A stretch of DNA of 64,000 bases from Psococerastis gibbosa (taxonomy: Eukaryota > Arthropoda > Insecta > Psocodea > Psocidae), in assembly GCA_963971405.1 (NCBI GenBank), contig OZ020491.1, positions 15,060,855 to 15,124,854 of the forward strand, written 5' to 3'. This document shows positions 1-61,082 of this stretch, in pieces. A program made the position numbers and the translations under genes. A model generated the notes under the pieces. It saw only the letters and a program-made list of their open reading frames with translations, was not told where the DNA came from and ran no database searches. The stretch's first letter is position 1, and each line of letters begins with the position of its first letter.

Positions 1-372
1 TGTCACAGGGTGGTGGAGTGCTCACCTGAAGTGAGGAAGACGATTACCGGAGCAGGACGGGTGTATTTGGATAGGACCTCCTGTAAGGTCAAAGATCACG
101 TCGCTGTATCTAGGTGCTACTCATGCCACAAATTTAATCACTCGGCAAAATTTTGCTCCAAGCAAAGTATCCCAATCTGTGGACATTGTGCAACCATAAG
201 TCATGTATATAAAGACTGCCCTACCAAAAATGATCACTCCCCAATTTGCATAAATTGTAAGCGAAATGGCCTCCAAGACTTTATTCATAAGGTTAATTCA
301 GTTACTTGCCCTTCTTATTTAAAAGCCATGAAACAATTAATTGACAATACCAATTATGGCCTTGACTTCTAA
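1..372 (+). pseudogene. LINE ORF1 (gag-like) C-terminus with CCHC zinc knuckles, 5'-partial
   Basis: The frame is open from base 1 and stops at TAA 370-372, giving about 123 residues. Two CX2CX4HX4C knuckles are visible (CYSCHKFNHSAKFC and CGHCATISHVYKDC), followed by a third, longer Cys cluster (CINC...H...C). The end, CPSYLKAMK then NTNYG, is the classic end of ORF1 proteins of Jockey/I/R1-type LINEs. Such proteins bind the element RNA and form the RNP. The following ORF starts inside its last codons. The upstream part is cut by the window edge. Confidence 0.8.
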
Positions 373-1279
373 GGGTAGTAAAAATTTGCAATCTATCTTT
401 AAAACATTTTCTGGCAGGAAAATTGACCAATGTGCTCCAAGTCAAAATTCTCAACTTTTAGAGCTTTCAGGAATATTAGATAATATTAGTCATTTCTATG
501 TTAATAATTCCACACCCAAGAGTAAAATTAATCTTATGTATAACATAGGGGAAGAAGTCGACTTACTCATTGGTTTCGCTTATCATGATCGCGTAAAGAA
601 AAAGGTTAGGTTTTCAAAAGGTATAAGCAAACGTCTTAATATGACGTCATTGAGTGAAGAAAAATTTCAGCAATACCCGTTGGTCAGCGATGGTAACTCG
701 TTTTGCCTTAGGCACTGTATAAATGGCATAAAATATTGTACATTGATTCTAGAAATATGGGATTCCACTGTCGGCTTTAAAAGTTTTTCTAGTCTTTTAT
801 CAATTGTAGATAACTGGGCTTTTGTCAACTATCCCCTTGTTTTAGGTGTAGATATATATACTATTAGTGGTAACATGGACTTTCCGGCGTTAGATTTACT
901 TAGTACTGTACTGATGCAACAAAACTTAAAATTTGTTTTTTACAATAAGGGTTACAGAAATATTGATTTTCTTCAGATTCCAAGTCATGCCCCTGATGTG
1001 CAGCCCAACCCCCCAGGCTGCCTTTTGCATAAAAATCAACAAGAGTTCTATATTAACAGCATGATAGAACTTAGAAATATATTTCTAAATGCCGATCATA
1101 TGAACGCAGTGAAATATCAGACTATACTTGAGTCAGCACTTTCACCCAGTATTCGCATATCAGGTGCTGCAATTAGTCTAATTAGGTTAACTAACACAAA
1201 TATATACAATAATGAGTGCTCCGCGTTTCTGATCAAAACAAATATATATAGGATGGGGTACACTCTAAATGATGGTTAA
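356..1279 (+). pseudogene. Unknown ~310-residue module at the start of the LINE helicase ORF
   Basis: The first ATG in frame is 356-358, overlapping the gag-like stop by 17 bases, which suggests coupled translation. The frame then runs without a stop to TAA 1277-1279. I do not recognise the domain. It is not a methyltransferase, protease or RT by any motif I can see. A YPLVSDGNSF stretch faintly recalls the DGNCF box of OTU-type cysteine proteases, but the expected Cys is Ser and no partner His motif is evident. After 1279 a second frame stays open to about 1355 before the helicase frame resumes, so this module and the helicase were probably one polypeptide broken by two frameshifts. Confidence 0.55.
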
Positions 1280-1369
1280 ATATGTTTCCTTTTGTCCCCT
1301 CTCCCAAAAATTCAATACTACAGAAAAATATATCTTGGTAACAGATAAGATAGAACGAATGCTGAACTG

Positions 1370-2390
1370 ATGCAGTCTACAGGTAAAGTGAACTTATTCG
1401 CACGTCCTATGCCTAAGCTGACTTTCGTTGAGGGCTGCCCTGGATCAGGCAAATCGCATTACATCATTCAACAGCACTGCACAGGGCGGGATCTAATACT
1501 GACCCACACTAGGGAGGCTGTAAAAGATATAAGAATAGCAACAGAAAAGCGGTTTCCAAACAACAAAAATCTACAGCTTCTCCAGAACTATCGCACTATT
1601 TCATCATTTATAATCAATTATCGAGGGGAAAAGTATGAAAGGGTTTTTATTGATGAAATTTCGCTTGGTCACGCCGGTTTTATAGGCTTTGTTGCTAATC
1701 TTTCTCACGCAAAGGAAATTGTCCTCCTCGGAGATAATAAGCAAATTCCATATATAGAGAGAAGCCCTTTCAAAGTTAATTTTCACAGTGTCACTGGGCT
1801 GTGCAGTCCCGGATGTTCTCCTTACTCAGACCAGGAGGTGCCCTGTAGATGTAGCATACGCTTTGTCCACGTCCTACCCGAATATCACGAGTAGGAATCC
1901 AATCGTAAATTCAGTTGCCCTAACGTTATCTAATGGTGAATATTACCAGTTAAAACCTGGTTCGCTCATTTTAACTTTTACTCAAGCTGAGAAACGCAAA
2001 GTTTCAAAAGCACTTGAGGGTAAGTGCTCTGAACCCATCCAAATCGGTACGGTCCACCAGAGTCAAGGGAAAACATCTGAACACGTTGTTTTGTGCAGAA
2101 TAAATTCATTACCTCTGGAAATTTACCACAGCATTCCTCACGCCATAGTAGCTATTTCAAGGCACACAAAATCGTTTCAATACCTAACAACTGGAAGCAA
2201 TGATGATGCAGTTAGCTCACTAATAAGGAAAGCCAGTATATTGGGCTCAAGACAACTCCTTGTGTGGCATAATAAACAATTAAATCAGCAAAATAATAAT
2301 AAAATAAATTTTGTGATGGGTGAAAAACCGGCAAGGGACATTAAGTGCTCTGAGTCACTGCCGGAGGTTATGTCACTAAACCATGGCTGA
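1370..2390 (+). pseudogene. Virus-type superfamily-1 RNA helicase domain in the LINE, frameshifted
   Basis: Helicase motifs appear in order. Motif I is GCPGSGKSH (about 1433-1459), motif Ia DLILTHTRE, motif II FIDEIS (about 1645), motif III LLGDNKQIPY (about 1723), motif IV TQTRRCPVDV (about 1825), motif V TVHQSQGKTSE (about 2048) and motif VI AIVAISRHT (about 2138). The QTRRCP, HQSQG and SRHTK pattern is that of alphavirus-like (tobamo/virga/negev-type) replicase helicases, not of cellular UPF1/Pif1 helicases. One frameshift between motifs III and IV (about 1753-1825) splits it: frame to 1894, then an overlapping frame from about 1790 to the stop at 2390. The family unwinds RNA using ATP; a role in retrotransposition is inference. 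Confidence 0.85.
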
Positions 2391-2790
2391 TCATCCTAAA
2401 TTATTAACAACTGCCTCCATGTCTCTTCAATGTAGTACGGCTAATATTAGTAAGCACCCATCAAAATATTTTATTTGTGTGCCTAAAAGCCTTTTTATTT
2501 ACTTAAAGTTTAAACATGGCTTGAGTACAAATTATAGAATTATATTTTTAATTACATATTATTTTCGATCTTACTTCTTTGCTCTGTATATCAAACTGTT
2601 CTTTTCTTAGTACGTTTTATATATATAAAGCACCCCAGCTGTGTTTCACGTACGTTTTTTTAAACTATAATCATAAAATGCATTTACGGTATTCTGCTCT
2701 TTACACAAAACCCCACCAAATAGCCAATGAATTTACAAAGTGAGATTGACAGGTACCAGGAAATAACAGACCACAGCTTCTCCTAACATG
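2391..2790 (+). other. AT-rich linker between the helicase and endonuclease blocks
   Basis: About 400 bases without recognisable coding motifs. A 75-residue open frame at 2383-2610 is AT-driven and has no domain signal. No poly(A), TTGAT tail or target duplication is visible here, which argues against two separate LINEs abutting, although a 5'-truncated insertion cannot be excluded by eye. Confidence 0.4.
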
Positions 2791-3530
2791 CAGACTTTGA
2801 AAACATATTTGGCACTGGCTTCAAAATTATGGTAATCAACATAAGGTCCTATAACAGGAACTTTACCGAATTGGCAGTACTCATAGATTCCCTAACAATC
2901 AATTTCGATATAATTTGTATAACGGAATGTTGGATTAATGATTATTTTGAACCAAAAGAAATCCCAAACTATAGCTCCTACTACACTCGTCAAAACAAAT
3001 TACAAAACGATGCAGTTGTTATTTATATAAAAAATAGCCATACTCATAGCGTAACGGAAATTAACTTACATGAAGGAAATGGGCTCAAAGTAAAATTTTA
3101 CATACATAAGCGAGAGTACGGTGTAATTTTTTTGGAGTATATAGATCACCTTCCTATTTAAACCTTACACCTTTTTTAGAGTCACTGCAAGATGCGTTAC
3201 AAAATGCTGCTGGTAGTAATACATGCATCCTTGCTGGGGATGTTAATATAAATAAATTAGGGAATAATTTACATAACCATATAAACGAATATCAAGATGT
3301 TTTAGGTGAATTTGGTTTGGTGCACTGCATACATAAGCCAACAAGAGTTACTCAACTTAGCAAAACTTGTATTGATCACATTTCTATCAAATCAGATAAA
3401 GAAGTTACAGCTGCCGTTCTTGAAACCACCATTACTGATCATTATCTGATAGCCATAGAAATCAAACTAACTGAACCTAAACAGAACAATATTAAGAAAA
3501 AAGAAAAAAGTCAAACAAACCGACTATAAT
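2791..3530 (+). pseudogene. LINE ORF2 N-terminus: APE-type endonuclease, frameshifted
   Basis: The frame around 2829-3161 reads NIRSYNRNF, then FDIICITECWI, matching the catalytic N- and E-containing motifs of apurinic-like LINE endonucleases. A frameshift follows, and 3317-3529 supplies the end of the domain with CIDHIS and TDHYLI, the conserved D and H region. The family nicks target DNA to prime reverse transcription. At least one frameshift (about 3161-3300) and a gap make it non-functional. The NIRS...F.EL style fits the Jockey/CR1-like group seen in insects. Confidence 0.75.
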
Positions 3531-4300
3531 AATTTAAAACTTCGTCTTTCTCACGAAACCTGGGAATCAGTGTACTGTCAAACGGACTTAAATGAAGTAT
3601 ATAAAATGTTTTTGCATAATTTTGAAGCTCACGTTCAAACGAACACCGTTACATTGCAGACAAAGCACAGACACAAAAAATTGACTCCATGGTCAACAAT
3701 TGGGCTAGTTACTTCAATTCACAAAAGAGACAAACTCCACGCCCGAGTTGTAAAACATCCAATGAATACATCACTCTCAACATATTATAAAAAAATGCAA
3801 ATAAATTGAAACAATTAATAAAAATTGCCAAGGCTAACTTTTATAAAAATAAGATAAATGAAGCTCACGACATTAAGGGAACCTGGAATGTTATTAAAGA
3901 AGCTACTAGTAAAAACACCAAAAACAGGAGTTATTCACATGAATTAATAATTAATTATATTATCGAAAACGACCCTAAAAAAATTGCGGATCATTTTAAC
4001 CATTTTTTTTTTTTAACGAAATCGGATCAAAACTGGCTGACGTATCTATAAAAAAAAACTAAAAACGAATGAACTTAGACTAGCTCAGAATATATAGGAA
4101 AGCGTAAACTTACCAAATTCACTCTTTCTAGCACCTGTTACTGGGGATGAAATCATTAATATAATAAGGGGACTTCAGTCTGAGAGTGCGCCAGGGGAGG
4201 ACGGTTTTAAGACAAAGTTACTCAAAGCCATTAAAGAAGAAATATCAGAAATTCTAGCCTTCCTCGTTAATCTAAGCTTTACCACCGGACAGTTTCCCGA
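3531..4300 (+). pseudogene. LINE ORF2 linker between endonuclease and RT, degraded
   Basis: Short open pieces in alternating frames (3570-3809, 3806-4051) carry lysine-rich linker sequence such as TPWSTIGL and FYKNKI, then GTWNVIKE, as in Jockey-type LINEs between APE and RT. Around 4181-4320 a further frame reads SAPGEDGF, the usual entry to the RT domain. Several indels, including poly-T and poly-A expansions near 4008 and 4051, break the frame. Confidence 0.65.
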
Positions 4301-5663
4301 TAAACTGAAGCAAGCCATTGTTCGCCCAGTATTTAAAAAGGGGGGAAAAAACTGACGTTAGTTGCTATAGACCAATCTCACTTTTAAGTACCTTCGGTAA
4401 AATATTCGAAAAATCAATGAAAGTAAGAGTGGAAAATTTCTTTAAGTCCTTCAATATTATTTCCGAAAATCAATTTGGTTTTAAAACCGGTGTAAGCACA
4501 AACGATGCATTACTTACCTTAACGGACCACATAATCACATAATCAGCAACATGGATGAAAATAAAAAAGTTATTGGAGTATTCCTAGACTTAGCCAAGGC
4601 TTTTGATACAATTTCTCACAAAATAATGCTCCAAAAACTTGAAAATGCAGGTATACGTGGAACCCCCTTAAAATGGTTTGATAGTTATTTATCAAACCGG
4701 TCTCAAAAAGTTAGCATTTCAGACCAAACAAGTGACTCTCTAACAGTCACCTTCGGAGTACCCCAAGGATCTATATTAGGCCCTGTTTTGTTTCAATTAT
4801 ATATAAACCCTCTTTGCAATCTAGCCAGTGATGGGAAAATTATTACTTTCGCTGACGATACTGTCATTCTCTTTCATGGAAACAACTGGGCAGAGGCTTT
4901 GAGCTCAGCTGAAGCAAGTCTCAGGCTAGTAAAATCTTGGTTGGATTCAAACCTACTAACACTTAACATAAGTAAAACACATCTTATGACTTTCCCCCCC
5001 AAAAAAGACCCATATATAAATATTGAGGAGCTGACAATACACGAATGCACAAACGGTATCTGTAATTGTGGAAAAGCTAATGAAACAACCTATCTTGGTG
5101 TTACAATCGATCCCTACCTTAAATGGACGGAACACATTAGAACTTTATCACACAGACTAAGAAAAACTGTTTATTTATTCAAAATTCTCCGTGACATATT
5201 ACCAATTGGCACATTAAAAACAGTCTATTTTGCAATCGTACAGTCAATTCTTTCTTATGGTATAATTGCATGGGGCTCTGCTAGAAAAGTTGCTCTGAAT
5301 CCACTAGAAAAGACACAAAAACTAATATTAAAGGTTATGCTGCGGAAACTTCGCCGCTACCCATCGGACGAACTTTTTGAGGAGGCGCGTATTCTGGACC
5401 TAAGGCAGTTATACACTAAAACTCTACTCATACGTTTCCAAAACCTCAAAGACGCAGCACAAATGAGAGAGCACTGCTACAACACTCGGCAAACAGACGC
5501 ACTCCTACTACCAAAACTAAATCTCAGCTTGGCAAAACGTAGCTACACATACCTGGCACCAAAAATATTTAACCTGATCCCCGTAAATATAAAAAGTTGT
5601 ACAAGAAAAACTTCTTTTAAACACCTACTAAACTTATGGCTTCATGAGAAAAAACAGATTTAG
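4301..5663 (+). pseudogene. LINE ORF2 reverse transcriptase domain and C-terminus
   Basis: The 4318-4542 frame gives YRPISLLSTFGKIFE and ENQFGF; the 4551-5663 frame gives GVFLDLAKAFDTISH, GVPQGSILGPVLF and ITFADDTVIL, the RT fingers and palm with the catalytic FADD intact. YLGVTIDPYLKWTEH and SYGIIAWG mark the thumb. The last 370 codons are uninterrupted. A stop near 4540 and the run of Gs at 4340 break the upstream part. There is no RNase H domain, which fits the Jockey/CR1 group. The catalytic core is the best preserved part of the element. Confidence 0.85.
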
Positions 5664-6020
5664 AAAACTTACTATTCCATGTAGAACAATAAAAATATAT
5701 TTTCATCAACATTTTTTTACTCAACTTAAAGAACAAAACTTATTTTTCTATTAACTCTTTTCTAGCATATACACTTTTACATACGTAACACATACCTGCA
5801 CACTGTCGTAACAAATCGGAGTTAAACTGAAATGCTGTACCGGCTTTAGCACGTGGAAGCATAGTTGGGCTGGTTATAATTCCTTGAAAAGTATTGAATG
5901 TAATATAACTTAGTATTTTAGCGTATTTAAAGTTAATATTAGTTTTGTCATTTTATGTATACTTCTCTTGTTGGAAAAAATTGGAATAAATATATATTTG
6001 ATTTGATTTGATTTGATTAT
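5664..6020 (+). repeat. LINE 3' UTR with TTGAT tandem tail
   Basis: AT-rich, non-coding. It ends with GGAATAAATATATATTTGAT and three further TTGAT-type units at about 5995-6017. Such a short tandem tail replaces poly(A) in many Jockey/CR1-like LINEs and marks the 3' end of the element. Confidence 0.6.
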
Positions 6021-17600: not shown

Positions 17601-20600
17601 TCTGATGTATCCCACGTCGAATAATCCCGTAGACAAGAATCCAACCTAGCATGAGGCACCCAAGTAGCTCCCATTGCATCCCTCCCAGTTGCTCAATTCC
17701 AGGTGTAATTTGCAGTACCCTCTTGCTGAAATTAAATTAAAGTGTTATTTTAGGGAATACCAAATGGAAAATGGGAGACTTTAAACAATAATAGAAATAA
17801 GAGAACCCTCTTATTGTTTCACCCAATATTATTATTTGAGTTAAAACCAAGCCCGTAGCCAGGATTTTTTGTGGGGGTGGCTGCGGCAACTGTGATCCTA
17901 TATCTAGTATAAATTTTTTTTCTTGAGAATTCAATTTTATCTAGTGTATTCTTTTGAGATAATGGTGTTACTGGGTATATATATGATAGCATAGGCACAC
18001 CAAACGTCAATTTGTAGGCGGATTTAGGTTTGGTGTGAAAACTGGCACATAATATTTTGCGGATATGCGGACTAAATCGTAATGCTATCATTACGATGGT
18101 TTAGATTGAATATAATTAATATTACGGTTAACCGAAAGAGGGGGGTTCGGGGGTCTCCCCCGAGGGGAAAAAATCCACATATAAGTGCAAAAGAGTGGGG
18201 TTTCACAGCAGCAAAACTTACAAAGGAATATATATTCACATTGCTGTAAACAGGGGGGCCCGGGGGTCTCCCCCGGAGGAAAAATTTTGAAAAAATTGGC
18301 CCGAAATAGTGGAGTTTTATTGTTTTAACAGCGGCAATGTTATTAATTTGCTGAGGAAGACATACTCATGTTACAGTTCTAGATTTAATTAATTCTCAAC
18401 TTTTCATTTCAGGGAGGAGAGGGCTGCAGCCCAATAAGCCCCCCCCCTTGCCGACGGCCTTGGTTAAAACAGTAAGCCATTTTCTTCAGTTGCACTTGTA
18501 CGGTACCGCTCACAAATAAAATTATTATGAGACGCGATAACTTATTCCTGTTAATATCAAATTTACAATATCGGATTGTTGGGGGTCAAAGGCTCTGGAT
18601 GATACAGACTTTTTTTTAGAAAAAGGTTAATAATGTATCTAATTGATCACTTCAGTCTCCTCACTAAGTAACCTAATAGGTACGGTACTTAGCATAACCT
18701 AACATAACATAACTTTATTCTTTCCATCATAAGTCTTGTCTCAAGTTGTGACAGGTCAAGTTTTGTGGAGATTCGCACACGTATGCAAGCACGCTACCAC
18801 ATTGCCACTCAAGTTGATACTATTCCTTATACAGACGGAGCTTTCATACTTACTCCCAAAATTCTTCGACGGGCGTGGTAGTGTGGTTTGTGATATTATG
18901 TGCTAATTCAGCGTCCATGCCTGGTGCAAAGCAAGTGTCAGTGTTCCACCAGTTTCCTGCCAACAAATTGAACTTTTTATGTTTGTATTTTATACATCAT
19001 GTAAGTATATTATTTTATACTTGTCGATTAGTTGGTGCGCTTCTTTATTCTTTAATGAGTATTGCGTCTATTTCAAGAATGTCACAAGACCGAATGCCAA
19101 ACAAAATGTACACAACTATGGCGAAAAGCTGGGACGTCCACGAAACCGCTGGAAGGGCGAATTCAAGGCCGACTGAGAAGCCGAGTTGGGAGTTCGTAGT
19201 TGGTAGAGCGTCGTGCGAAACCGAGATGACTGCGGGAGTGTTGTTGAGCAGGCCAAAGCCCTGGAGCCGGAGGAGGAAGAAGAAGAAGCCTTTAGGTGCC
19301 CATTCCATTGACCGGCTAGGGCTATTTCCAAAAACGGTGACGTGGTAGCAGATATTCAAGACTTAGGTGGCGTTTCCACCGACCTCGCATTGCAGAATGC
19401 AAATGACATTGACGGAAACTAGAATTTTTCTTTTTATAGAAATCTATTAAAATGTTTGTATTTAACATATCCCATGACGCCATTTTTTAATTTTAGTTTG
19501 TTTGTGATTTTACTGTATGATCGTTGATCAATTTTAACTATGGCATAGAGGAAAATAAACATTTCCGTCAATTCTGCAATGCGAGATCGGTGGAAACGAC
19601 ACCTAAGTCTTGAATGTCCGCTACCACGTCACCGTTTTTGGAAATAGCCCTAGCCGGTCAGTGGAATGGGCGCCATACAATATGTGCATCTTAGAGTCCC
19701 TTAGCGGAGCCCTCTATCCATAAATTATCCCTAATGTCCCATATTTATTTATTTTCTTTTATTTTTTATCTTGTGTGACTCACCGCAGTCCTGCCATGGA
19801 AGTCCTGGGAGAGCCGTAAACGAGGCTATGAGATAGAATAGCGTCCAAGCTATAATGACGCAGTAGTACACATCCAGAAAAAAGACAATTGTCATTGTGG
19901 CGTACCCGACGCCTTGCAGAATGGGCGCCAGGTGACCTACCAGCGTCATTCCGCCAGAACCCAGGTACTGCCCGATGGCTACCTCTTGAAAGAAGATGGG
20001 GATGCCGCAGAAAATCATGGCTATAGTGTAAGTCACCAGAAATGCACCTGAAATAAGTAAGCAGAAATAGTATAGTGAAGTACGAATATTTACAGATAAA
20101 ATAATACAATTCATGCCATTATCATCATGTCATCTACTACAAGGCGATACATATGTGTGGTTTTTATATCTGGACGTAGCCAGAGAGGTGTAGGGGGGGG
20201 GGGGGCGTGACTCACGCCATTTTACTGTCGCAGAATCGACAGTGTGTAGTTTTGGATCACGGATACAAAATGTTCATTAGCTATCTTATAGCATTACCTG
20301 GTTATTTTAACTTAAATAGCAGATCAGTTTCACACGTATATCCGTACGGCATGTACTACTAGCTAGTTCGGAAACAGAGGAGGTTCCACGCCTCAGCAGC
20401 AGACAACACACCAGCCAACCAAGAGTTAAGATGCTCTCCAAGGAAGACTTGCCATATATTTTGCTCAGTTAAGAATTCGATAGATGGGTCCAGTTCGACT
20501 AGATAAAATATAAACTCAAATCTGAATAATATGCCTTAGCATAATGTTCATTAAATCTAAATAAAAATATTAATAAGGCATCCTCCTTGCAGAACATCCC

Positions 20601-37400: not shown

Positions 37401-40400
37401 CGACCATGTATAATTCGAGGCATCGAAGTCACATGTTGCTGCTAACCAGCCATCCGGCTGTGACTTGAAGAAGAAAAGTACCTATTTCAAGCATATAAAA
37501 ACACAAAGGTTTACATACTGGCAGCCTGATAAAAGAAACGCCTAGTTCCTAGTTCCTGTTTAAACCCTCCACAAGCTTTTATTTATCCATGATTTACCAA
37601 CCGCTCACTGTTGGCCTGAACAACTATTAGATCTGGGGAATTATGCATTTAAAGGGGGACAGTTTTAGCAAATGAATCAGTACTGAGTAGACATATGATA
37701 AAGTCTATAATTTGAACGTTAAATTTTGTTCCAGGTCCATTTGAGGAATTGGAAACAATTTTCCAGCATGGTGCCTTTGTCACATGCGCAGGGAACACGC
37801 ATACGTCTGGGCTAGTTGATGGCCACGCCTACACGTTGACGGGGGTGGGTGCAGTGACCTTGACCTCGGGGGGTCATGCGAGATTGATGCGATTAAGAAG
37901 TCCTTGGGCTGATGCTGTCGAGTGGACGGGTCCTTGGAGCGACAGGTTGGTAATGGGAAGGGGCACGATTTTGGGCCTCGTACGCTATTGTTCTTGCTAA
38001 CAAGCAAGGCAGTGACCTATAATTAATCCTATCAAGAAAAGGCCTACCACCAGACTCGGAAAAATGCCTTTGTATGCTATGCTTTTGATTTACCAATAAA
38101 GAAAGCTATGTCCTAAACGATGTAGAAACTTATATGAGACGATCACCGCTAGTGGAGCATGCCGCCAATTTTTCAATGCCACCACCACAATTATCCCGAA
38201 TCATTAATTGTTTATACTTCTCAATTTATGTAGTTGTTTGTATGTATGTAGCCTGATGATGGCATAGTGCCGAAACCGGTCGCTTTAATTATATTTTAGT
38301 AATACTTGACAACGTGATTTTATTTTATTTACTATGGCGAAGTATTACAATGTGAATGTGGAAAATGATAGTATAACGTTATAAATAAAATAAATAAATA
38401 TTGACTTTTTTGTTCTATTACTAAGCCAACCTAGCGGAGTTAGGGCTTTAAAGCCCTCTCTTACACTCAACTAGGAAGACCCGGGACCGCCTGCTTTACA
38501 TGCCCTCCGAAGCATAGCCAGAAAATGTAGGAAGTGTAGGACTCGAACCAACAACCTTTCGGGTGAAAGTCAGAGTCCGTACCGCTACTCTACATGTCCT
38601 GTATAATGTTATGATGGAATATACGTCGGAATATTTGTCGGAATATACTGTATACCGAAAACCGAACAAGTAAGAGGCCTACATATGGGTCACTAACCCA
38701 ATGTTCCCGCCTTCTCGAACCAAAATGGACTCTTTGACGCTCCCTCGTTCGTCATTCATTAGTTGATTTTTAGGAGCATTGAGTGGGATTTAGCTGAACG
38801 GGAAGACAAAGAACGTCTTCAGCTGAATGCATTAGATGATGGAGAATTTTGGATGGAGTTTGCAGATTTTCAGAAACAATTCGAGGAACTCACAGTGGCT
38901 ACCATTGGTCCTGATTTTGACAGAGATGGCTGTTCAGGTATGATTTCCGGAATTACTATCAAACAGGGAAAACAATGGCCGAGCTCAGGGCGTTAGCGTC
39001 CGACCGGGGCGAGTTCAATAAATGGTACGGGGCGACCCCGCGACCCCCTCACGCTGCGCACGCGGCACTAAGAGGGAAGAAGAAGATGGTATCCAGTGGT
39101 GGAACTTAAATGAATGTATTATCATCATAGATAATAATCAGATCCAGTTGTCCGAGTGTGATACGTGAGCCTCCTCCACTCCCTCCTGTCTCTCCACTTC
39201 TGGTGATTCAGCACTTCTTCTGGTACCATTTCCTACGGATCAACCTCAATCTGGCTTCTACATCTCTTTTTGGTCTTCCTCTCTTTTGGGTTCCTCCAGC
39301 CATTTCCTCCCGCACCTGCTGTTATACATAATCTATTCTCTTTAAGTGTCCGAACCATTACTGCCTTCTTCTCCAACAAGGACTCTTCCACCCCCTCTCT
39401 TCTCATCAATTTCTTAATTATCCCTTCTTTTCCTCTTCTGTTCTGTTCTGACGAACTTCATCTCATCCGCTTGTATTTTACTGTCTTGATGTGGATGATG
39501 AGCCTAAGCGACTTCAATAGAGTTTACAAGGTTGTTTTCTTTACTTTTCAGATTCGCCCCGGCAATCGGTCAGTGTTCGAGGTGCGTGGACCACCGAAAG
39601 CGCTGGAGGCAGCAGAAACAATTTAGAAATGTTCCAGATTAATCCACAGTACCTGCTCACCATTCCCAACACCGCCCATCATGGCTCCGTTAGCATTTTA
39701 GTTGGTGTTATGCAGCAGCCGGCAACTACATTGCTTCCCATTGCATTCTTTATTTATAAGGTAAGCCACTGTCTTTCTATATGACTTGTTCAAGAAATAT
39801 GCGAAAATTTACGTAATTGCGGGTATGAAACAGAAAATATAGTCGCGTCATCTATTTTACGGTCACAGGCGCCCTTGTTGCACGCTCTAATAAACCACAG
39901 TATTAGTTGACCTCTCACTACTTGGGAAGGGTTTACAACCGCACGGTCTTTTACTGGGAATGTTAGAAGACGACCTTACGGTCACGGGGCATCGCCATGT
40001 CTTCCTGGGGCTCTTAGGCATTAATAAACTGCCCTAGAAGACACAAAAAAATATTCATCACCATCATAATCGATAATCAGCTCCAGTTTCCCGGGTGTGA
40101 CACATAAACCTTCTCCAGTCCCTCCTGTCTCTACTCCCTCTGATACCAGTCCAGGGATCGTCCTCAATCTGGTTTCTCTATCTCTTCCTTGGCCTTCCTC
40201 TATTTTTTCCTCCACCAATTTCCTCGTGCACCTGCTGTTAGGTGGGGTTTCCATCGACCTCGCATTGCAGAATGCAAATGACATTGACGGAAATTAGAAT
40301 TTTTCTTTTTATAGTAATCTATTAAAATATTTGTACTTAATAGACAGCAGACATTCAAGACTTAAGCGGGGTTTCCACCGACCTCGCATTGCAGAATGCA

Positions 40401-43400
40401 AATGACATTGACGGAAATGTTTGTTTTCCTCTATGCCATAGTTAAAATTGATCAATGATCGTACAGTAAAATCACAAACAAACTAAAATTAAAAAGAGTG
40501 GCACGTTGAGATGCTACCAAAATAACTAGTGGCACTCGAATATAAGTGGAAACTTCATGCCAGAAGATTTTCCCAATGGGAACCCCTTCCCAGAGGGTGG
40601 TTAAATCAGTTGTGGGTACCAAAAATTCGCTGAAGAGGTGGCAAATCAAATTTACCTCTATGTGTAAGCTTGTCGCCTGACAATCATAAAAAACAGTATG
40701 CCAGACGTTTTTAGCAACAGCAACCCCTCGCCAGAAGGGTCGGAAATTTATCCTAGGGTGCTTTTTGTTAAAAGGGTGGCAGTGGAAAAACCATTATACC
40801 GTATAGTACTCATGAATGTAATGTTAGAAATCTTAGTCACAGACATTTTAAGTGCAGTGGGGGTTGATACAGAAGGGTGGAAGTCACCAGCCAAAGTGAA
40901 AAATTAGCTGAAAAGGTGGCAACTTAATTTCTCCGTATACATCTTTGGATACTTCGTATTCATATTAGAAATTTTTGTCCCAGAAGTTTTCTCATACTTT
41001 TTCCCCACCAAGAAGGGGTAGTAATTTATCTGGGGTGGGTTTTCACTGTAAGGGTGGCATGGAAAATCCAACATAAAATGGTTCATTTGTGCTAATTTAT
41101 GGCAGGAAACAACCCCACAGAATATTTTAGGGTAGTTAGGGGTGATCCAGAGGGGTGGAAAGTCCAATACAGAGGGGTAAAATTGGCTGAAGAGGTGGCA
41201 ATCTGAATCGTAGCTTAAATGTCTTAAATTGGTGTCTGTGTTACTATGTTATTGGTCACAGACGTTATATTCGGTGTCTACCCCTCCCCAGAAGGGGTAG
41301 AAATCTACCTGGGGTGGGATTTCACTATAAAGGTGGCATGAAAAATTCAACGCGAAATAGCTGCTTCCTGCCCATATATGGCGGGGAATCATATGCCAGA
41401 ATATTGTAATGTGATTAGGGGTGATCCAGAGGGGTAGTAAATCATAAACTCAGGGATAAAATTCTTTAAAGAGGTGCCACCTTGAAATTTTGCTATGTGT
41501 TTGTATATTTAAATACAAGTACGAAAAAATTGGTCCCAGAAATTTTATGCGGTGCCAACCCCTCCCCAGAGGGGGTAGAAATTTATCTGGGGTGGGTTTT
41601 CACTGAAAGGGTGGCATGAAAAATCCAACATAAAAAGTCCCTTTGTGCTAATTTATGGCAGGAAACAAACCCACAGAATATTTTAGTGTAGTTAGGGGTG
41701 ATCCAGAGGGGTAGCAAACCAAAAACTGAAAATTGCGTAAAGAGGTGGCGCCTTGAAATTTTACTCTATGTTATTATATTTGAATATATGTATAAAAAAC
41801 TTGGTCCCAGAAATTTTATGCGGTGCCAACCCCTCCCCAGACGGGGTAAAAGTAGGAGAGACAATTTTATTAGCTAAACAGGTATTTGTGCCAGTCTCTA
41901 ATATTGATCCATTCATATTACCAATACCATTGGCCTACATTTGAAACGCACTTATCCCCAGTGGCGAAATACATAATATCCCCAGTGCGGGGGGGGGGGG
42001 GGGGCTACCAACCAACCAACTCTACGTTCAATTCGACGAGAAAGAAATTGTTAACCCCGTAGCCTAATTTCGAATCTTTGGAATTAAATTGCTTCATTTT
42101 CTTTTAATTGGTGCCAATTTTTAACATAGCTTCCATGTCTTGTTTATGCAATTTAGTCGAAACTTGCATTTATATTATTTTCAGACAATGGTGCCAGTGA
42201 TACAAATTTAATTTTTTATGATTCTGCCTATTTTACTGATAGACTTATTCCTAAAATCGTATTCTTTACGCTTAACAAGGTCGTTACTTAATATTACATG
42301 CAACATGTTATATATTCCATCGATCCTAACCCATAGTGTTAGGACAGGGTGATTTTTGCTTAACTGGTCAAAGTACAATAAGCGCTTCGCCAATATATTT
42401 GGGCCTCACTTCATGCTCACAGCTTGTACTTTTCTCTCGGCTCGTAGGCTTATGTGTATAGGCGAACTTATATTACGACTTTAGAATATTGGGAAACAAA
42501 GAAGAGGTCGTTTGGTTGACATATTATGTAAGCAAAACCGAGAATGCAACTGTAAAAGCTAATTTAGAAAGCCGCTGGTACGGTGTCAAAGAGCAATTGG
42601 GAGGAATAAAAAATATGATTAAGAATACATCAGAACTACATCTGAGAGCGGACAGAAGAAGACATAAAGTGTCTACGGCCGATTAAATTATTGCGCTTTT
42701 AGAGGAGGAACGAAAATGAGTGTCGAGGGACCGCAGTAGTAGTAGTAGTAATAAATTTGGCAAAGTCCCATGCCATGGTGAGGGCTCGCAGGACACTCCC
42801 CATCTTGATCACTCAGACAACTCAATTGCGGCAGCGAAGCTGTTTTCCTGCCTCGAATCCTCCCTTAGCGAAACTAACCGAGGTAAGACGTCCTAGCCAC
42901 GTGCCACCCGGTCTCGGCGCCGATCGGCCGGAGTCCTTCAAGGGAATCTGCACACCCATGCGATCATTGGGTACCTATCTCCCGAAGAAACGTTTCAGGG
43001 TGGCCGTTGTGTGGAGCTCTTCGGTCAAGCAACCCGGTAATTCTCAATCGATGCAGCCAGTGACATGCTCTGTATTCCAGATACGCATACAGTGGTGGCA
43101 AGCCCAATAATGCCTCAAGCGCAGATGGAGGAGTTGATGGCATTGCCCCAGATATTGAAATGCAAGCCAGTCTTTTTATTTTCACCAGCTTCTGCTTGGA
43201 TGTCTTCAGCGACGCCCTTTTCCATCACACACGCAGCCACATAAAGCCACCTCATCACTTTTGTTGAAAGACCCCAGGTACTTGCAAAACCAACCTGTAG
43301 GCTCCTATGAACCGAGCATGCCATTACTATTGCTGAATCTCATTGTCTGTTCCATAGAAGCTTCAAATCAAGATGAACTCCCAAGAACTTAACACATTTT

Positions 43401-46400
43401 GTGGATAGAACTTCTTGATCATTAACAAACAGAGTTGTGTTCTTCAGCTTCTTTCTTCTAGTGAAAAGAACTAACTGCGTGTTGCTGCAGCCTCTAGCTA
43501 CCCAGGTTCGAAAGGTTTTTAAAGTATGTCACGAAAATGAGAGGGCAGAATGTGGCTTTGTGTGGAACTTCGGTATAGTGCGAGTGAAAATTTGGCAAAA
43601 ATTCAACAGGCTTATGGGGAGACTTCTTTGTCAAGGGCACAGGTTTATCGATGGTTCAAGGCATTTTCCGAGGGTCGGGAGATGTTAGAAGGCGGACCCC
43701 ACAGCCGAAGACCTTCAACTGCAAAGTTGAATTGAAAACATTGAGAAAGTGCGGGCCCTTGTGCGTTACGATCGACGTTTGACAGTCAGAATGATCGCAG
43801 ATAAATTAAATTTAAACCACACAACTGTTAATCTTCGAAAAACGGTCATGCGAGGCGACCTAACAACAAGAACAATTGGGTGCTGCATCATGACAATGCG
43901 CCTTGTCACACAGTGATGTCAATCAATGAATATCTGACCAGTATAAACTCTTCAACCTCCCCATTCACCCGATGTGAGTCCTTGTGACTTCTTCCTGATC
44001 CCCAGGATCAAGAATGAGCTCAAAGGACGCCATTTCGGTACCACTGAAAACATTAAATCCACCGTAAACTGGAGGCCATCCAATAATCTGAATTCCAGCA
44101 CTGCTTTGAAGAGTGGAAAAGCCGCCTCCAGCGCTGTATCAACGCACAAAGGAACTACTTCGAGGGATATCGAATTGAAATCTAAATATATTTTAATTTG
44201 CTATACCGGTACAACATTAAAACAACCACGAAATTCTGGGTCCACGAATATCAGTCAGTTTGGCATTTCTTTTAAGTAACTTTTAAAACTACCACCAGTT
44301 TTTAGTTTAAAGCCGAACTGTTCTGCCACCACGTTCACATCAATTTTAGGCTATATTCTCTTTTAAATTATTTTCAGGAATATTTATAGCGTATGACTTA
44401 CAAAGCAGATCGTTCTGTGAATTGTGTTTTTTCGGTTTGTTGTCAGCCTGATTAATACAAAACATGCTCTACTTCATGATAATTATATACTGCGGCGGAT
44501 TCGATTCCATACTACTCATGTCTCTTTTCGTCGTAGAGGTTTTGAACATCTTCCACCCATGTCGCCAGCTTGCCTTACAAAGAAGTGATTACATTTCCCT
44601 GCCTGTTTAAGAGTCTTAGCCTAACCGATTTCCGTCTTTTCATGTTTTTTGTTTCCTTTATCCTCTTGTGGACATTAAACGAGTTGCGTCTGTTCTCCAT
44701 CTCTAACATGACCCTGCAGTTTCGTGTTCCATTCGTCTCCTTGAAGCTGACGTTTCTTCACTTTTTGATGTCAACCCAACCTGTTTAACGGAAGAAAGTG
44801 TGACGCATGCTTCGGGAATGTTTTCCTCGTTTAAATCGCCAGACAGAAATAAAATCTTCCCCATACTCCTACAAAAATAAATTCGTGAGGTTACTAAATT
44901 CCTTGCGGCGATTTATAAGGGCTGCTTAAGGTTTAGCTCGAGTATAAACAAAAAATAACAAAAACTTAGAGTTTTAGAAAAACTTGTTATAACAACCCGA
45001 ATTAGTAAAACCCAAATAATCGTTAAGAAATTAACTTTGTCTAAGAAACCCACTTGTGTTAGTATAATATAAGGGTTTTATACTAACACAAGTGGGTTTC
45101 TTAGACAAAGTTAATTTCTTAACGATTATTTGGGTTTTACTAATTCGGGTTGTTATAACAAGTTTTTCTAAAACTCTAAGTTTTTGTTATTTTTTGTTTA
45201 TTAAAATGAAATACCACGAAGTCACGAGTAATCTAATTATTTATGTTTAGCTCGAGGTTGCTTCGGGAAATCCTGGGGAATGTCCCCTAAAATGTTGAGG
45301 TGGTTCTATGTCACAGTCATACGGCCAACGCTGTTGTACGGCTGTCACGTATGGTGGAAAAGATCACGACTCATCACCTTTCAAGAGCAACTGAGAAAGT
45401 TGCAGAGAACAGTATGCATAGCAATAACGGGAGCCTTACGGTCAACACCGACAGCTGCATTGGAAGTGCTGTTAGAGTAACCACCACTGCACTTGGTAAT
45501 CGAAAATGAAGCATGGATAGCTGTTCAAAGAATGTTTACGGTTAACGCCTTACAGCCCAGACTCCCGTTTGCTGGACATGCGCTTGAACTCTTGAAACTG
45601 AGGAAGCAAGAACTGTCAATGCCATGTGACAGATTGGCGAAAGGCACAATTTTTCACTGTATTTTTCAATTTTTCAATGATTTTTCAAGATCGTGACCAG
45701 TGGAGTTGTGAGACGGAATCAGATACTGATCTGGTATGGTATACTGACGGGTCTAAGCAAAACGGGAGATCGGGTTTAGGCGCGCACTGTGCAGAACTGA
45801 AGGCAGAGATAGTACGACCACTGGGAAGGTTTGCCTCAGTCTTCCAGGCTGAAGTGCAAGCAATCGCTGAGGCAATGGAATGCTGCATGGAAAAGAAAGT
45901 GTCCAACAGGAATGTAATAGTGTACTCTGATAGCCAAGCTGCTTTGCGAGCAATTTCCAACCCTGTGGTGACATCAGCAGTCGTGCAAGACTGTAAAAAT
46001 CTGTGCGAAAAGGTACGAGGTTCTAACCGTGTGCATCTCATAGCGGGCACGAAGGGAACGAAAGGGTGGACGAGCTGGCTCGTGAAGCGTCTAACACCGA
46101 TCCATATGGACCTGAACCAATTCTTCCCGTACCCTGGACAACCGTAATGACCAGAATCACGTCGGAGTTGATCGGGAACTTTAATAGGTGCTGGAATGAG
46201 ACGCTCGGAATGAGACACTCAATAAGGTGTATTGAGGGTCCATGCACAAAATTACGTCTCAATATGCTAAGCCGCGGCCGAAATTCCACAAGAATCGTAA
46301 CGGCTCTGATAACTGGCCACGGATCCTTCCGAGCTCACCTGTCAAAGCTCGGTGTAGCGGTAGACTCCACAAACTGCAGATTTTGCGAAGAAGCCGTCGA

Positions 46401-49400: not shown

Positions 49401-52400
49401 AGTGTCCAACAGGAATGTAATAGTGTACTCTGATAGCCAAGCTGCTTTGCGAGCAATTTCCAACCCTGTGGTGACATCAGCAGTCGTGCAAGACTGTAAA
49501 AATCTGTGCGAAAAGGTACGAAGTTCCAGCCGTGTGCATCTCAGATGGGTCCACGAAGGGAACGAAAGGGCGGACGAGCTGGCTCGTGAAGCGTCTAACA
49601 CCGATCCATATGGACCTGAACCAATTCTTCCCGTACCCTGGACAACCGTAATGACCAGAATCACGTCGGAGTTGATCGGGAACTTTAATAGGTGCTGGAA
49701 TGAGACGCTCGGAATGAGACACTCAAAAAGGTGTATTGAGGGTCCATGCACGAAATTACGTCTCAATATGCTAAGCCGCGGCCGAAATTCCACAAGAATC
49801 GTAACGGCTCTGATAACTGGCCACGGACCCTTCCGAGCTCACCTGTCAAAGCTCGGTGTAGCGGTAGACTCCACAAACTGCAGATTTTGCGAAGAAGCCG
49901 TCGAAAACGGGTGGCACGTCCTCACAGAATGCCCGGCGATCTGGAGGGCAAGACTTGACACTCTGAAATTCGCCATTCTCGGGGACCATGAACTCAGATG
50001 CCCAAGGCCGGGTGATCTAGTACAGTTTGCCACCAGAATCGGTATTGTCTAGAGAGCGAGGAAAGTCGGGGTCGCTCTATGGGCCCTCACAAGCGGCCTA
50101 AGTCGATAAAGCCCCGGCGAAGAAGAACAACAACAACAAGGTTTAGCTCCATCTCCCTCAAGTGGCGGGAAGTCTGTGCGATCTTCATTCCCAAACATAG
50201 TAGGTCAGACTACACCAAGCCATTGGCGATCAGACCTATAAGCCTCAGTTCCTTTTTGCTAAAGACAATGAAAAGTCTAATGGAACGAGAACTCAGGCTT
50301 ACACTCACCAGCAGCAATGAATTGCACGACGGTTAGCACGGTCTAAGGCGAGGGCGGTCAACAGAAATCGCCCAGCATAGTTTCGTCAAGTAACTATTGT
50401 AGAAGGGAATCTTGACGCTAAAGAAATGGTGTTCTGTGTATTTCTTTTTTTTTAATTTAATTCTGACTGCTGTAGATGAGTTTATTTATTTATTATTATT
50501 ATTAGTATTATTTTTTAATCACCCAAAGAAGATTGACCCAGAGACTGCAGCAACACGCAGTTAGTTCTTTTCACTAGAAGAAAGAAGCTGAAGAACACAA
50601 CTCTGTTTGTTAATGATCAAGAAGTTCTATCCACAAAATGTGTTAAGTTCTTGGGAGTTCATCTTGATTTGAAGCTTCTATGGAACAGACAATGAGATTC
50701 AGCAATAGTAATGGCATGCTCGGTTCATAGGAGCCTACAGGTTGGTTTTGCAAGTACCTGGGGTCTTTCAACAAAAGTGATGAGGTGGCTTTATGTGGCT
50801 GCGTGTGTGGTGGAAAAGGGCGTCGCTGAAGACATCCAAGCAGAAGCTGGTGAAAATAAAAAGACTGGCTTGCATTTCAATATCTGGGGCAATGCCATCA
50901 ACTCCTCCATCTGCGCTTGAGGCATTATTGGGCTTGCCACCACTGTATGCGTATCTGGAATACAGAGCATGTCACTGGCTGCATCGATTGAGAATTACCG
51001 GGTTGCTTGACCGAAGAGCTCCACACAACGGCCACCCTGAAACGTTTCTTCGGGAGATAGGTACCCAATGATCGCATGGGTGTGCAGATTCCCTCGAAGG
51101 ACTCCGGCCGATCGGCGCCGAGACCGGGTGGCACGTGGCTAGGACGTCTTACCTCGGTTAGTTTCGCTAAGGGAGGATTCGAGGCAGGAAAACAGCTTCG
51201 CTGCCGCAATTGAGTTGTCTGAGTGATCAAGATGGGGAGTGTCCTGCGAGCCCTCACCATGGCATGGGACTTTGCCAAATTTATTACTACTACTACTACT
51301 GCGGTCCCTCGACACTCATTTTCGTTCCTCCTCTAAAAGCGCAATAATTTAATCGGCCGTAGACACTTTATGTCTTCTTCTGTCCGCTCTCAGATGTAGT
51401 TCTGATGTATTCTTAATCATATTTTTTATTCCTCCCAATTGCTCTTTGACACCGTACCAGCGGCTTTCTAAATTAGCTTTTACAGTTGCATTCTCGGTTT
51501 TGCTTACATAATATGTCAACCAAACGACCTCTTCTTTGTTTCCCAATATTCTAAAGTCGTAATATAAGTTCGCCTATACACATAAGCCTACGAGCCGAGA
51601 GAAAAGTACAAGCTGTGAGCATGAAGTGAGGCCCAAATATATTGGCGAAGCGCTTATTGTACTTTGACCAGTTAAGCAAAAATCACCCTGTCCTAACACT
51701 ATGGGTTAGGATCGATGGAATATATAACATGTTGCATGTAATATTAAGTAACGACCTTGTTAAGCGTAAAGAATACGATTTTAGGAATAAGTCTATCAGT
51801 AAAATAGGCAGAATCATAAAAAATTAAATTTGTATCACTGGCACCATTGTCTGAAAATAATATAAATGCAAGTTTCGACTAAATTGCATAAACAAGACAT
51901 GGAAGCTATGTTAAAAATTGGCACCAATTAAAAGAAAATGAAGCAATTTAATTCCAAAGATTCGAAATTAGGCTACGGGGTTAACAATTTCTTTCTCGTC
52001 GAATTGAACGTAGAGTTGGTTGGTTGGTAGCCCCCCCCCCCCCCCGCACTGGGGATATTATGTATTTCGCCACTGGGGATAAGTGCGTTTCAAATGTAGG
52101 CCAATGGTATTGGTAATATGAATGGATCAATATTAGAGACTGGCACAAATACCTGTTTAGCTAATAAAATTGTCTCTCCTACTTTTACCCCGTCTGGGGA
52201 GGGGTTGGCACCGCATAAAATTTCTGGGACCAAGTTTTTTATACATATATTCAAATATAATAACATAGAGTAAAATTTCAAGGCGCCACCTCTTTACGCA
52301 ATTTTCAGTTTTTGGTTTGCTACCCCTCTGGATCACCCCTAACTACACTAAAATATTCTGTGGGTTTGTTTCCTGCCATAAATTAGCACAAAGGGACTTT

Positions 52401-59189: not shown

Positions 59190-61080
59190 ATAAATGATTT
59201 AGTGAAGGAATACAAAATATAACTAACAAAAAACCAGCAAAAGTTGGTAAGTGGGAAGCTTATCATAGCAGGCTCACAGAGTACAACAAAGCTATTCGGA
59301 AAGCAAAACGGAAAACATGGAGAAGCTTCTGCGAAAAAGTTGAAAATACAGCAGAAACAGCTAGACTCCATAAAATACTGAATTCCACCCACACTAACCC
59401 CGTGGGAACTCTGGAAAATTCTGATGGCAAGTTTACACGGACAGGGGAGGAGACACTGGAAAAACTTTTAGGGTGCCACTTCCCCTGTTCGGTGAAATGC
59501 GACGACAACAGCAGCACATCAGAAGACAATAAAGCCCGAAGGGCTGATTGGAACTGTGCCAAAAGGCTGATAAAACCGGGATAGGTGGGCTGGTCCATCA
59601 GCACTTTTGAGCCATGCAAGGCTCCAGGTCCGGATGGGATTTTTCCCCTCCTTCTTCAGGAGGGGAAAGAGATCCTCACCCCGGCATTGACAACCATCTA
59701 TCAGGCCAGTGTAGCGCTTGGACATGTTCCTAAGTCGTGGGCAATGGCTAAGGTAGTATTTATACCTAAACCTGGAAAGGCGAACTACGCCCAGGCCAGG
59801 TCATACAGGCCGATATGTCTCAGTTCTTTTCTATTAAAAGCTCTAGAGAAAATCCTGGATAAACATATCCGGGAAAAAATACGCACTAACGCTGGTTTGC
59901 ATAGTTTTCAGTATGCGTACTGCCCTGGCAGATCCTCTGAGACTGCATTGCATCAACTGGTGAGCAGACTGGAGGAAAGCCTGGACAATGGGGAGATTGC
60001 ACTGGCAGCGTTTTTGGACATTGAGGCGGCTTTCTCCAACGCGGGACATGACTCCATGGTAAGGGCGTTGGAGAGAGTTGGCGTAAATGCAACTGTGTGT
60101 AGATGGATCAGATCCATGCTTAGCAATAGGAGGATTCTAGCATCCCTATCTGATGAGAAGGTGATGGTAAGGGCCACCAGGGGTACGGCACAGGGTGGGG
60201 TTATCTCGCCCCTGTTGTGGAACCTTGTGGTGGACAAAATCATCACCAGACTCAATGAGGTGGGAGTGTACGCACAAGGATATGCGGATGATTTGGCCAT
60301 TGTGATTAGGGGTAAGTCCATGAGGGTCATAACCGAGCTAATGCAAATGGCTTTTTCTGAAGTAGAAAAATGGTGCAAGGCTGAAAATCTGAGCATCAAC
60401 CCATCCAAAATCTCGATGGTACCATTTACTCGAAAGAGGAATCTTGATGGGGGAAAGCTGCCTAAGCTTTTCAATCAAGTTGTAAAACTGGGGACGGAGG
60501 TTAAGTATCTAAGGGTTAACCTAGACAAAGGACTTACCTGGAATCCCCATATTACAAAAACTATTAACCGAGCTAAACAATTAATTTATGTTTGCAGACG
60601 GGCAATAGGCACAACGTGGGGAATCAGGCCTAAAATGGCAATGTGGATTTACACAATGGTCATTAGGCCGGTGATTACCTACGGAAGTGTGGTTTGGTGG
60701 ACCAAGACTACACAGGTCACAGTGACAACCAAGTTGAATGGGCTCCAGAGGCTGGCCTGCCTCTGTATCACAGGAGCAATGTCAACTTCACCAGGGGATG
60801 TCCTGAATACTCTATTGAACCTGCCAACCTTGGGAATCTTCATTGAAGCACAGGCCAGGATGGGCGCCTATAGATTGGAGCTGGAAGGCTGCTGGAGAAG
60901 CAAAAGGTCAGGCCACTCCAATATTACCAAAAGCATATCGGAAGACACGCTTTTAATGCCGTCAGACCGAATGACACCCCTGCTCTCATTCAGCAAACCA
61001 TTTAACACTAGAATTCCAGCTAGAGAAGAATGGAATGCTGAAGAACATCAAACAGGGGACAATGACCTAGTCTGGTATAC
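59190..61080 (+). pseudogene. LOA/I-group LINE ORF2, reverse transcriptase part
   Basis: KRKTWRSFCEKVE (linker), then TAG at 59582, then FEPCKAPGPDGIFPLLLQEG, VVFIPKPGKANYAQARSYRP, AAFLDIEAAFSNAGHDSM, GTAQGGVISPLLWNL, GYADDLAIV (palm, catalytic DD intact), LNGLQRLACLCITGAMSTSP (thumb). The frame runs open from 59585 to 61189, but after about 61080 the protein is out of frame. Confidence 0.85.
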
Positions 61081-61082
61081 AA

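Follow-up and report, generated by a model that had tools for sequence, protein, structure and literature searches.

A three-ORF LINE of Psococerastis gibbosa with a tobamovirus-like superfamily 1 helicase between gag and APE-RT

Helicase-carrying LINEs and the element in the window

Helicases in LINEs have been reported by Lazareva, Morozov, Solovyev and colleagues (2015, 2017, and 2019). In Hemiptera and Orthoptera, superfamily 1 helicase (SF1H) ORFs were described beside a Jockey-type ORF2, and one such ORF in N. lugens shares 2 nt with ORF2 (Morozov et al. 2017, PMC5563155). In the TRAS/R1 LINEs of Lepidoptera, which have a reverse transcriptase (RT) of the R1 clade, a virus-type SF1 helicase is located at the C terminus of ORF2, and an unassigned stretch of more than 300 residues lies ahead of it (Lazareva et al. 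2015, PMC4686597). For CR1/L2/Jockey LINEs, Metcalfe and Casane (2014, PMC4120745) used domain types and trees to argue that ORF1 has been joined to an unrelated ORF2, and they propose that a 5'-truncated insertion landed between the two ORFs; the word "helicase" is absent from the text of their article.

The window analyzed here is a 64,000-nucleotide stretch of DNA of Psococerastis gibbosa. Positions 1-6017 are the 3' six-sevenths of a decayed LINE of about 7 kb, which belongs to a family termed A2; a further 1,002 bases of it extend beyond the window start to its 5' end, and its 3' end is near position 6017. The order of this element on the + strand is gag zinc knuckles (1-372), helicase ORF (356-2390), spacer, APE-RT (2727-5663), and (TTTGA)n tail. 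Two hallmarks of a LINE are present, namely, (i) an APE endonuclease and an RT in one ORF, broken in the window copy and uninterrupted in the relatives at loci L027 and L019, and (ii) a constant 3' end with a short-repeat tail, combined with variable 5' truncation. The candidate target-site duplications seen on comparison of the flanks are short (5 to 10 bases), and one copy has none. We confirmed the window element as a true LINE unit in which the SF1 helicase has a separate ORF, placed after gag and before APE-RT. This organization had been claimed in an earlier note on this DNA and is borne out by the sequence, the fold, and the repeated genomic order. The further suggestion of a new architecture does not stand, since the SF1H ORFs that adjoin or overlap a Jockey-type ORF2 (PMC5563155) were already on record; the helicase-carrying LINE architecture was thus known before the window copy.

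Like the LINEs described by Morozov et al. (PMC5563155), the window element has a virus-type SF1 helicase ORF just ahead of an APE-RT ORF2, on the same strand and separate from the RT. In that description we did not encounter the gag-helicase-ORF2 chain of overlaps, the exchange of a cassette between RT types, or the protease fusion seen among the families of this genome; OTU and protease terms have 0 occurrences in the text of that article. A virus-type SF1 helicase in a LINE is also what it shares with the TRAS/R1 elements (PMC4686597), from which it differs in that its helicase occupies a separate upstream ORF.

Features of the gag, helicase, and ORF2 segments

Positions 1..372 (+ strand) contain the C-terminal part of a gag-like ORF1, recognized by its reading frame, its motifs, and the comparison of loci. 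Its three zinc-knuckle-like motifs (115-156, 178-219, and 247-309) scored below the Pfam cut-offs. Of the eight other family A loci that match gag, six are 89 to 93% identical to the window in the gag end; for family B (L016) the identity is 58.8%.

The helicase ORF (356..2390, +) begins with an ATG in the +1 frame, giving a 17-nt overlap with the gag stop; in the window copy it is interrupted by a TAA (1277-1279) and by a frameshift within 1780-1894. The alignment of relatives revealed an N-terminal region conserved in the family (approximately residues 1-210; 356..1020, +, with an approximate boundary). The segment at approximately 1030..2270 (+) is the counterpart of the solved tobamovirus helicase, composed of the accessory part and the SF1 core with motifs I-VI, according to Pfam, a PDB profile search, and the predicted fold. 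All the motifs I-VI listed in the earlier note were located, and the helicase motifs are found at 1433-1456 (GCPGSGKS), 1646-1657 (FIDE), 1724-1762, 1830-1850, 1965-1994, 2049-2072, and 2142-2168. The two pieces of the helicase matched Pfam Viral_helicase1 (PF01443) with E values of 2e-19 and 2e-11; membership in SF1 is indicated by the span of this profile match over the core and by the presence of motifs I-VI. The significant rows of the PDB profile search cover positions 346-632 only. The predicted fold corresponds to the entire tobamovirus helicase structure (392 of 440 residues), and the list of fold matches is wholly occupied by the helicase part. In BFVD, the named best rows were virga-like virus replicases, most of them from arthropods, with Atrato Virga-like virus 1 as the top row; the best row extends over 698 columns of such a replicase at an rmsd of 21.8 and is a lead only. 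The assignment as a tobamovirus-like SF1 helicase is supported by sequence and predicted fold. The protein resembles the helicase of tobamovirus and virga-like replicases in fold and in its match to PF01443 but differs from a viral replicase in being LINE borne, in its length of about 650 amino acids, and in having no Pfam match to a methyltransferase or polymerase domain in its ORF.

In a database search with length limits that exclude full replicases, 17 of the 18 matches were uninterrupted proteins of 633 to 667 amino acids covering 89 to 99% of the query. As judged from these sequences, the window helicase is a member of a family of free-standing proteins of about 650 amino acids. It bears signs of purifying selection; in the comparison of families A1 and B, synonymous sites were saturated and no ratio was obtained. 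Two candidate features ahead of the helicase, an OTU protease (DGNS) and a 2A-like peptide (DVQPNPPG), were rejected because neither sequence is conserved in the 17 relatives.

Positions 2383..2405 (+) are a remnant common to the ORF2 start of family A1, with the ATGGCTGA overlap with the helicase stop, and A1 DNA homology ends there. The subsequent spacer (2406..2726, +, 321 bases) was found at no loci other than the five that have the A2 junction. The decayed ORF2 (2727..5663, +) is spread over several frames and comprises an apurinic-type endonuclease (about 2823-3517), which scored below the Pfam cut-off, and an RT (about 4119-5591) with a FADD motif at 4848-4859 and a match to Pfam RVT_1 (E value, 1e-25). 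The 3' untranslated region and (TTTGA)n tail (5664..6017, +) form the 3' end of the element. No RNase H was detected with Pfam in the uninterrupted ORF2s of A1 (L027) and B (L019), and the window ORF2 is too broken for this test. In a tree of 70 RT rows, the window RT is set apart from P0021, P0139, and P0019 with an unsupported placement, which goes against simple co-inheritance; the RT lineages were distinguished by identity and tails, and the tree contains no named reference RTs.

Mosaic families in the genome

The search of the genome for the helicase returned 102 rows, about 48 of them in two satellite arrays, and 19 places, mostly the best scoring, were examined. Many copies carry gag, helicase, and APE-RT in one order on one strand, a recurrence that the earlier note had named as support. 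The gag-helicase halves of A2 and A1 share about 92% DNA identity, whereas their ORF2s are only 25% identical in protein, and the homology breaks at position 2405. Since a closely similar half is joined to unlike ORF2s, A2, or else A1, is chimeric and was put together at the ORF2 start. Eleven genome matches stop at position 2405, of which three (C20:17.04, C12:9.73, and C20:10.06 Mb) are outside the places examined. A second chimera, D, consists of the gag and half of the helicase of family B joined to the A1 ORF2, with one junction at three loci. Chimera D has no helicase motifs II-VI but is present at three loci, so that a motor supplied in cis is not a strict requirement, a point against the role favored below for the helicase. 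Two of the eight family B loci (L017 and L018) share flanks and therefore count as one insertion. In families A and B the gag ORF overlaps the helicase ORF, and in A1 ORF2 also overlaps the helicase. In a distant fourth family, the helicase is fused with a coiled coil (identified by eye) and a Ulp1-like protease.

The chimeras may have arisen either by a 5'-truncated LINE landing inside another or by template switching, and the data fit both; no founder nested insertion was found among the genomic copies. In contrast to the domain types and trees used previously (PMC4120745), these recent chimeras show breakpoints to the base, in one genome and beside relatives of both parents. In the literature searched, which included few subscription papers or preprints, we found neither an account of such a mosaic gag-helicase/ORF2 history nor a report of a LINE helicase joined to a Ulp1-like protease.

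We are inclined, with some reserve, to regard gag plus helicase as a self-contained cassette that moves among LINE lineages whose RTs are unrelated and that functions with any RT placed behind it. In this genome it precedes three RT types (A1, A2, and B), is fused to a protease in the fourth family, and appears to have taken part in at least two recent recombinations (A1/A2 and B/A1). If so, the unit of selection for the 5' half would be the cassette and not the RT, and chimera D, with its broken helicase, would amount to a natural knock-out that receives help in trans.

Proposed role of the helicase and alternative explanations

The best explanation of the whole, to which we assign a probability of roughly 0.7, is that A2 is a three-ORF chimeric LINE whose gag-helicase cassette acts on the gag-RNA particle. 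Gag and helicase would be translated from one RNA through their overlapping ORFs, and the helicase, as an NTP-driven RNA motor, would strip structure, proteins, or small-RNA complexes from the element RNA before it is copied by any RT at the target. Since the helicase stays with gag and not with the RT, the gag-RNA particle is the likeliest partner, and the helicase probably serves this RNA-protein particle rather than the RT. The range of roles for captured viral helicases in LINEs is thereby narrowed: gag and helicase remain together across an exchange of the RT, and a motor-less chimera reached three loci.

A tentative alternative, clearly less probable, is that the helicase acts mainly as a suppressor of RNA silencing, sequestering small-RNA duplexes or unwinding them and thereby freeing the element from control by piRNAs or siRNAs. 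Such a role is compatible with a cassette that stays with gag, and the helicase of a P. xylostella LINE was weakly suppressive in leaves of N. benthamiana, as cited by Morozov et al. (PMC5563155). However, the motifs and the whole viral helicase fold have been kept, which a plain RNA-binding suppressor would presumably not need.

We consider it unlikely that the helicase acts with the RT in target-primed reverse transcription, where it would clear RNA structure or displace strands, as proposed by Morozov et al. (PMC5563155). The fusion of the TRAS helicase to ORF2 and not to gag (PMC4686597) favors this role and speaks against a gag partner, but gag and helicase were kept together while the RT was swapped for one only 25% alike, and chimera D occupies its three loci without motifs II-VI.

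Despite the virga-like replicases among the best BFVD rows, it is highly improbable that the helicase is not a transposon gene but an endogenous viral element left by a virga-like virus, given the free-standing form of nearly all its relatives within the length limits of that search, a scan of IMG/VR with the helicase alignment in which none of 31 pattern stretches was confirmed as a relative, and the overlaps of the helicase with gag in A and B and with ORF2 in A1.

The equally improbable view that an APE-RT LINE was inserted by chance beside an unrelated gag-helicase element is already contradicted. The 321-base spacer and the A1/A2 break make an insertion plausible as the origin of A2, but no A1 ORF2 was found beyond the tail of the window copy, up to position 9000. 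The earlier note had considered APE-RT copies with a clean 5' end near 2.4-2.8 kb and helicase copies never linked to RT as signs against a single unit; instead, helicase copies are linked to RT, and the six RT-only copies examined, from a set of about nineteen close ones, each start at a different window position (2842-4319) and have no common 5' end near 2.4-2.8 kb. Furthermore, the A2 junction is identical at five loci, and the 5' flanks differ among the three of these that reach the 5' end (the window, L009, and L013).

Organization of the element and linkage of its ORFs

The element at the start of the window (plus strand) comprises the C terminus of a gag-like ORF (1-372), which includes three motifs resembling zinc knuckles; a helicase ORF (356-2390), which overlaps the gag stop at its ATG; a decayed APE-RT ORF (ORF2; 2727-5663); and a 3' UTR followed by a (TTTGA)n tail, the element ending near 6017. 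Two lesions interrupt the helicase frame, a stop at 1277-1279 and a frameshift within 1780-1894. Pfam searches matched the two helicase pieces to Viral_helicase1 (E values of 2e-19 and 2e-11) and the APE-RT to RVT_1 (1e-25). Tobamovirus replicase helicases were the top solved relatives by sequence (2.5e-12) and were also matched by a profile from 17 helicase relatives (8e-53). Upstream, the element extends 1,002 bases past the window to a 5' end shared with four other copies (L009, L013, L024, and L025), which start within five bases of it.

In its account of TRAS elements, Lazareva et al. 2015 (PMC4686597) places a virus-type superfamily-1 helicase (SF1H) at the end of ORF2, behind an unassigned spacer of >300 aa, whereas the window helicase occupies its own ORF between gag and ORF2. 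It lies just before ORF2, as in the Jockey-type LINEs with SF1H ORFs next to ORF2 that Morozov et al. 2017 (PMC5563155) describes for Hemiptera and Orthoptera; antiviral roles are considered by Morozov et al. 2019. Because of these earlier reports, the feature is a variant of a type of LINE already known, and, as far as literature searches show, the new part is chimeras that can be read to the base.

A search of the genome that contains the window (409 Mb in 68 contigs) gave 102 matches to the helicase piece, and linkage was assessed at 19 copy loci plus the region upstream of the window. The order gag, helicase, and APE-RT on one strand, proposed in the earlier note, recurs in other copies. 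(i) At eight family-B loci, with a helicase piece 63-65% identical to that of the window, the helicase is followed by APE-RT on the same strand; the gag end is in place at five, and three are 5' truncated. Six of the seven other loci are 98.8-99.9% identical to L016, and L023, which has an internal loss, is 96.5-97.3% identical; L017 and L018 share flanks and represent a single, duplicated insertion. (ii) Six family-A1 loci (L010, L012, L014, L025, L026, and L027), some 5' truncated or fragmentary, carry the helicase with A1 ORF2, which at L011 lies immediately beyond the fetched stretch and at L024 is present as fragments only. (iii) Family A2 consists of the window copy, L009, L013, L015, and a broken fifth member at C20:16.00 Mb; ORF2 of L009, L013, and L015 is interrupted or cut off by the locus end. 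L009 (G000:C21, minus strand) is seemingly split, with the ORF2 start in the locus, the matching RT ~11 kb downstream (C21:3414917-3415579), and, starting between the two, an 817-aa open frame that belongs to something else.

By the earlier note, APE-RT copies with a clean 5' end and target duplication near 2.4-2.8 kb, together with helicase copies never linked to RT, would speak against the three-ORF unit. Six of the ~19 close RT-only copies start at 2842, 3121, 3429, 3440, 4210, and 4319, the pattern expected from ordinary 5' truncation, and no other 5' sequence common to these six was found within the fetched stretches. In other genomes, matching contig sizes provide indirect evidence of helicase-RT linkage: P0007 (helicase) and P0021 (RT) are each associated with one contig of 5415 bases, P0006 (helicase) and P0139 (RT) each with one of 5877 bases, and P0139 is the best non-self match of P0021. 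At least two such coincidences arose in 7.5% of random shifts of the lengths, and in both top rows they never did.

Exchange of the gag-helicase cassette

The window copy is a chimera, and the cassette of gag and helicase has been exchanged between different ORF2 sequences. A1 copies are ~91-92% identical to the window as far as position 2405 and do not match past it; eleven genomic matches end there, with A1 ORF2 near all eight of those looked at. A1 and A2 diverge right after the common ATGGCTGATSATCCTRAATTATT: in A1 the helicase stop and ORF2 start overlap by 8 bases, whereas A2 has a 321-base spacer and then a different ORF2. Between A1 and A2, the ORF2 proteins share 25.4% identity across 370 aa (A1 versus B, 24-26%; A2 versus B, 34%), and the 3' tails of A1, A2, and B are (TTA)n, (TTTGA)n, and (ATTC)n, respectively. 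A1 ORF2 has separate relatives in the genome, up to 58% identical; one of them, 43% identical, is preceded (L042) by an ORF1 of 250 aa, coiled-coil-like by eye, in which no gag or helicase match was found. Since A2 keeps a remnant of an A1-like ORF2 start, the data suggest that A2 rather than A1 is the derived form.

In a second chimera (D; L039, L040, and L041), family-B gag and/or helicase is joined to A1 sequence, which starts with the final 36 bases of the helicase and continues with ORF2. The helicase is cut at residue ~425, ahead of motif II, and the junction is at the identical base at the three loci, with a four-base overlap; a further listing of junctions gave these three loci as well. 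The copy on C2 terminates in an A1-type (TTA)n tail with no family-B sequence beyond it in the fetched stretch, and this copy has therefore moved as a chimera. For LINEs, Metcalfe and Casane 2014 (PMC4120745) inferred exchange of ORF1 and proposed 5'-truncated insertion as one route. No founder insertion was identified here, and target-site duplications were limited to short candidates of 5-10 bases, with none at one copy.

Selection and possible role of the helicase

The helicase motifs are conserved, and the ORF shows signs of purifying selection (dN/dS of 0.19 for A1 versus A2 over 280 codons; pN of 0.25 and pS of 0.78 for A1 versus B). The ORFs overlap, and helicase and ORF2 may be translated by re-initiation at such overlaps. 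Because gag and helicase remain together while the RT changes, the helicase may act on the gag-RNA particle. Two observations argue against this role, namely, the fusion of the helicase to ORF2 in the TRAS elements treated by Lazareva et al. 2015 (PMC4686597) and the spread of chimera D without the helicase motor; the latter implies that helicase activity either is not needed in cis or is provided in trans.

Protease-fused relative, satellite arrays, and other features

A distant LINE-like unit (L029/L036; G000:C21:239900-249300) has a 1130-aa ORF with an N-terminal region and SF1 helicase as in the window family (34% identical to P0001) and a C-terminal Ulp1-like Peptidase_C48 domain (E value of 1.5e-12). 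Downstream of this ORF are an APE-RT, which is broken, and a tail of (TTGTA)n. Literature searches found no publication on the combination of helicase and Ulp1-like protease in a LINE. Arrays with many helicase matches occur on two chromosomes (L037, G000:C3:25797300-25801300; L038, G000:C14:20479500-20483500). Both pieces consist of rearranged family C ORF parts, the C3 piece having a 3,393-bp unit with neighbors 99.3% alike, and they apparently represent a satellite that arose from a LINE ORF.

The window also contains a near-perfect palindrome (40346-43495 and 50540-53688) with inverted arms of 1,658 and 1,506 nt that are 100% complementary and further 99% arms within it, which is either a recent inverted duplication or an assembly artifact. 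A piece of a sodium:neurotransmitter symporter gene at 19752-20129 (minus strand; PF00209, E value of 1.1e-30) is probably a host exon. Another LINE lies at 59585-61904 (plus strand); its domains are RT, RNase H, and zf-RVT, and it is of a different kind from the helicase-bearing one.
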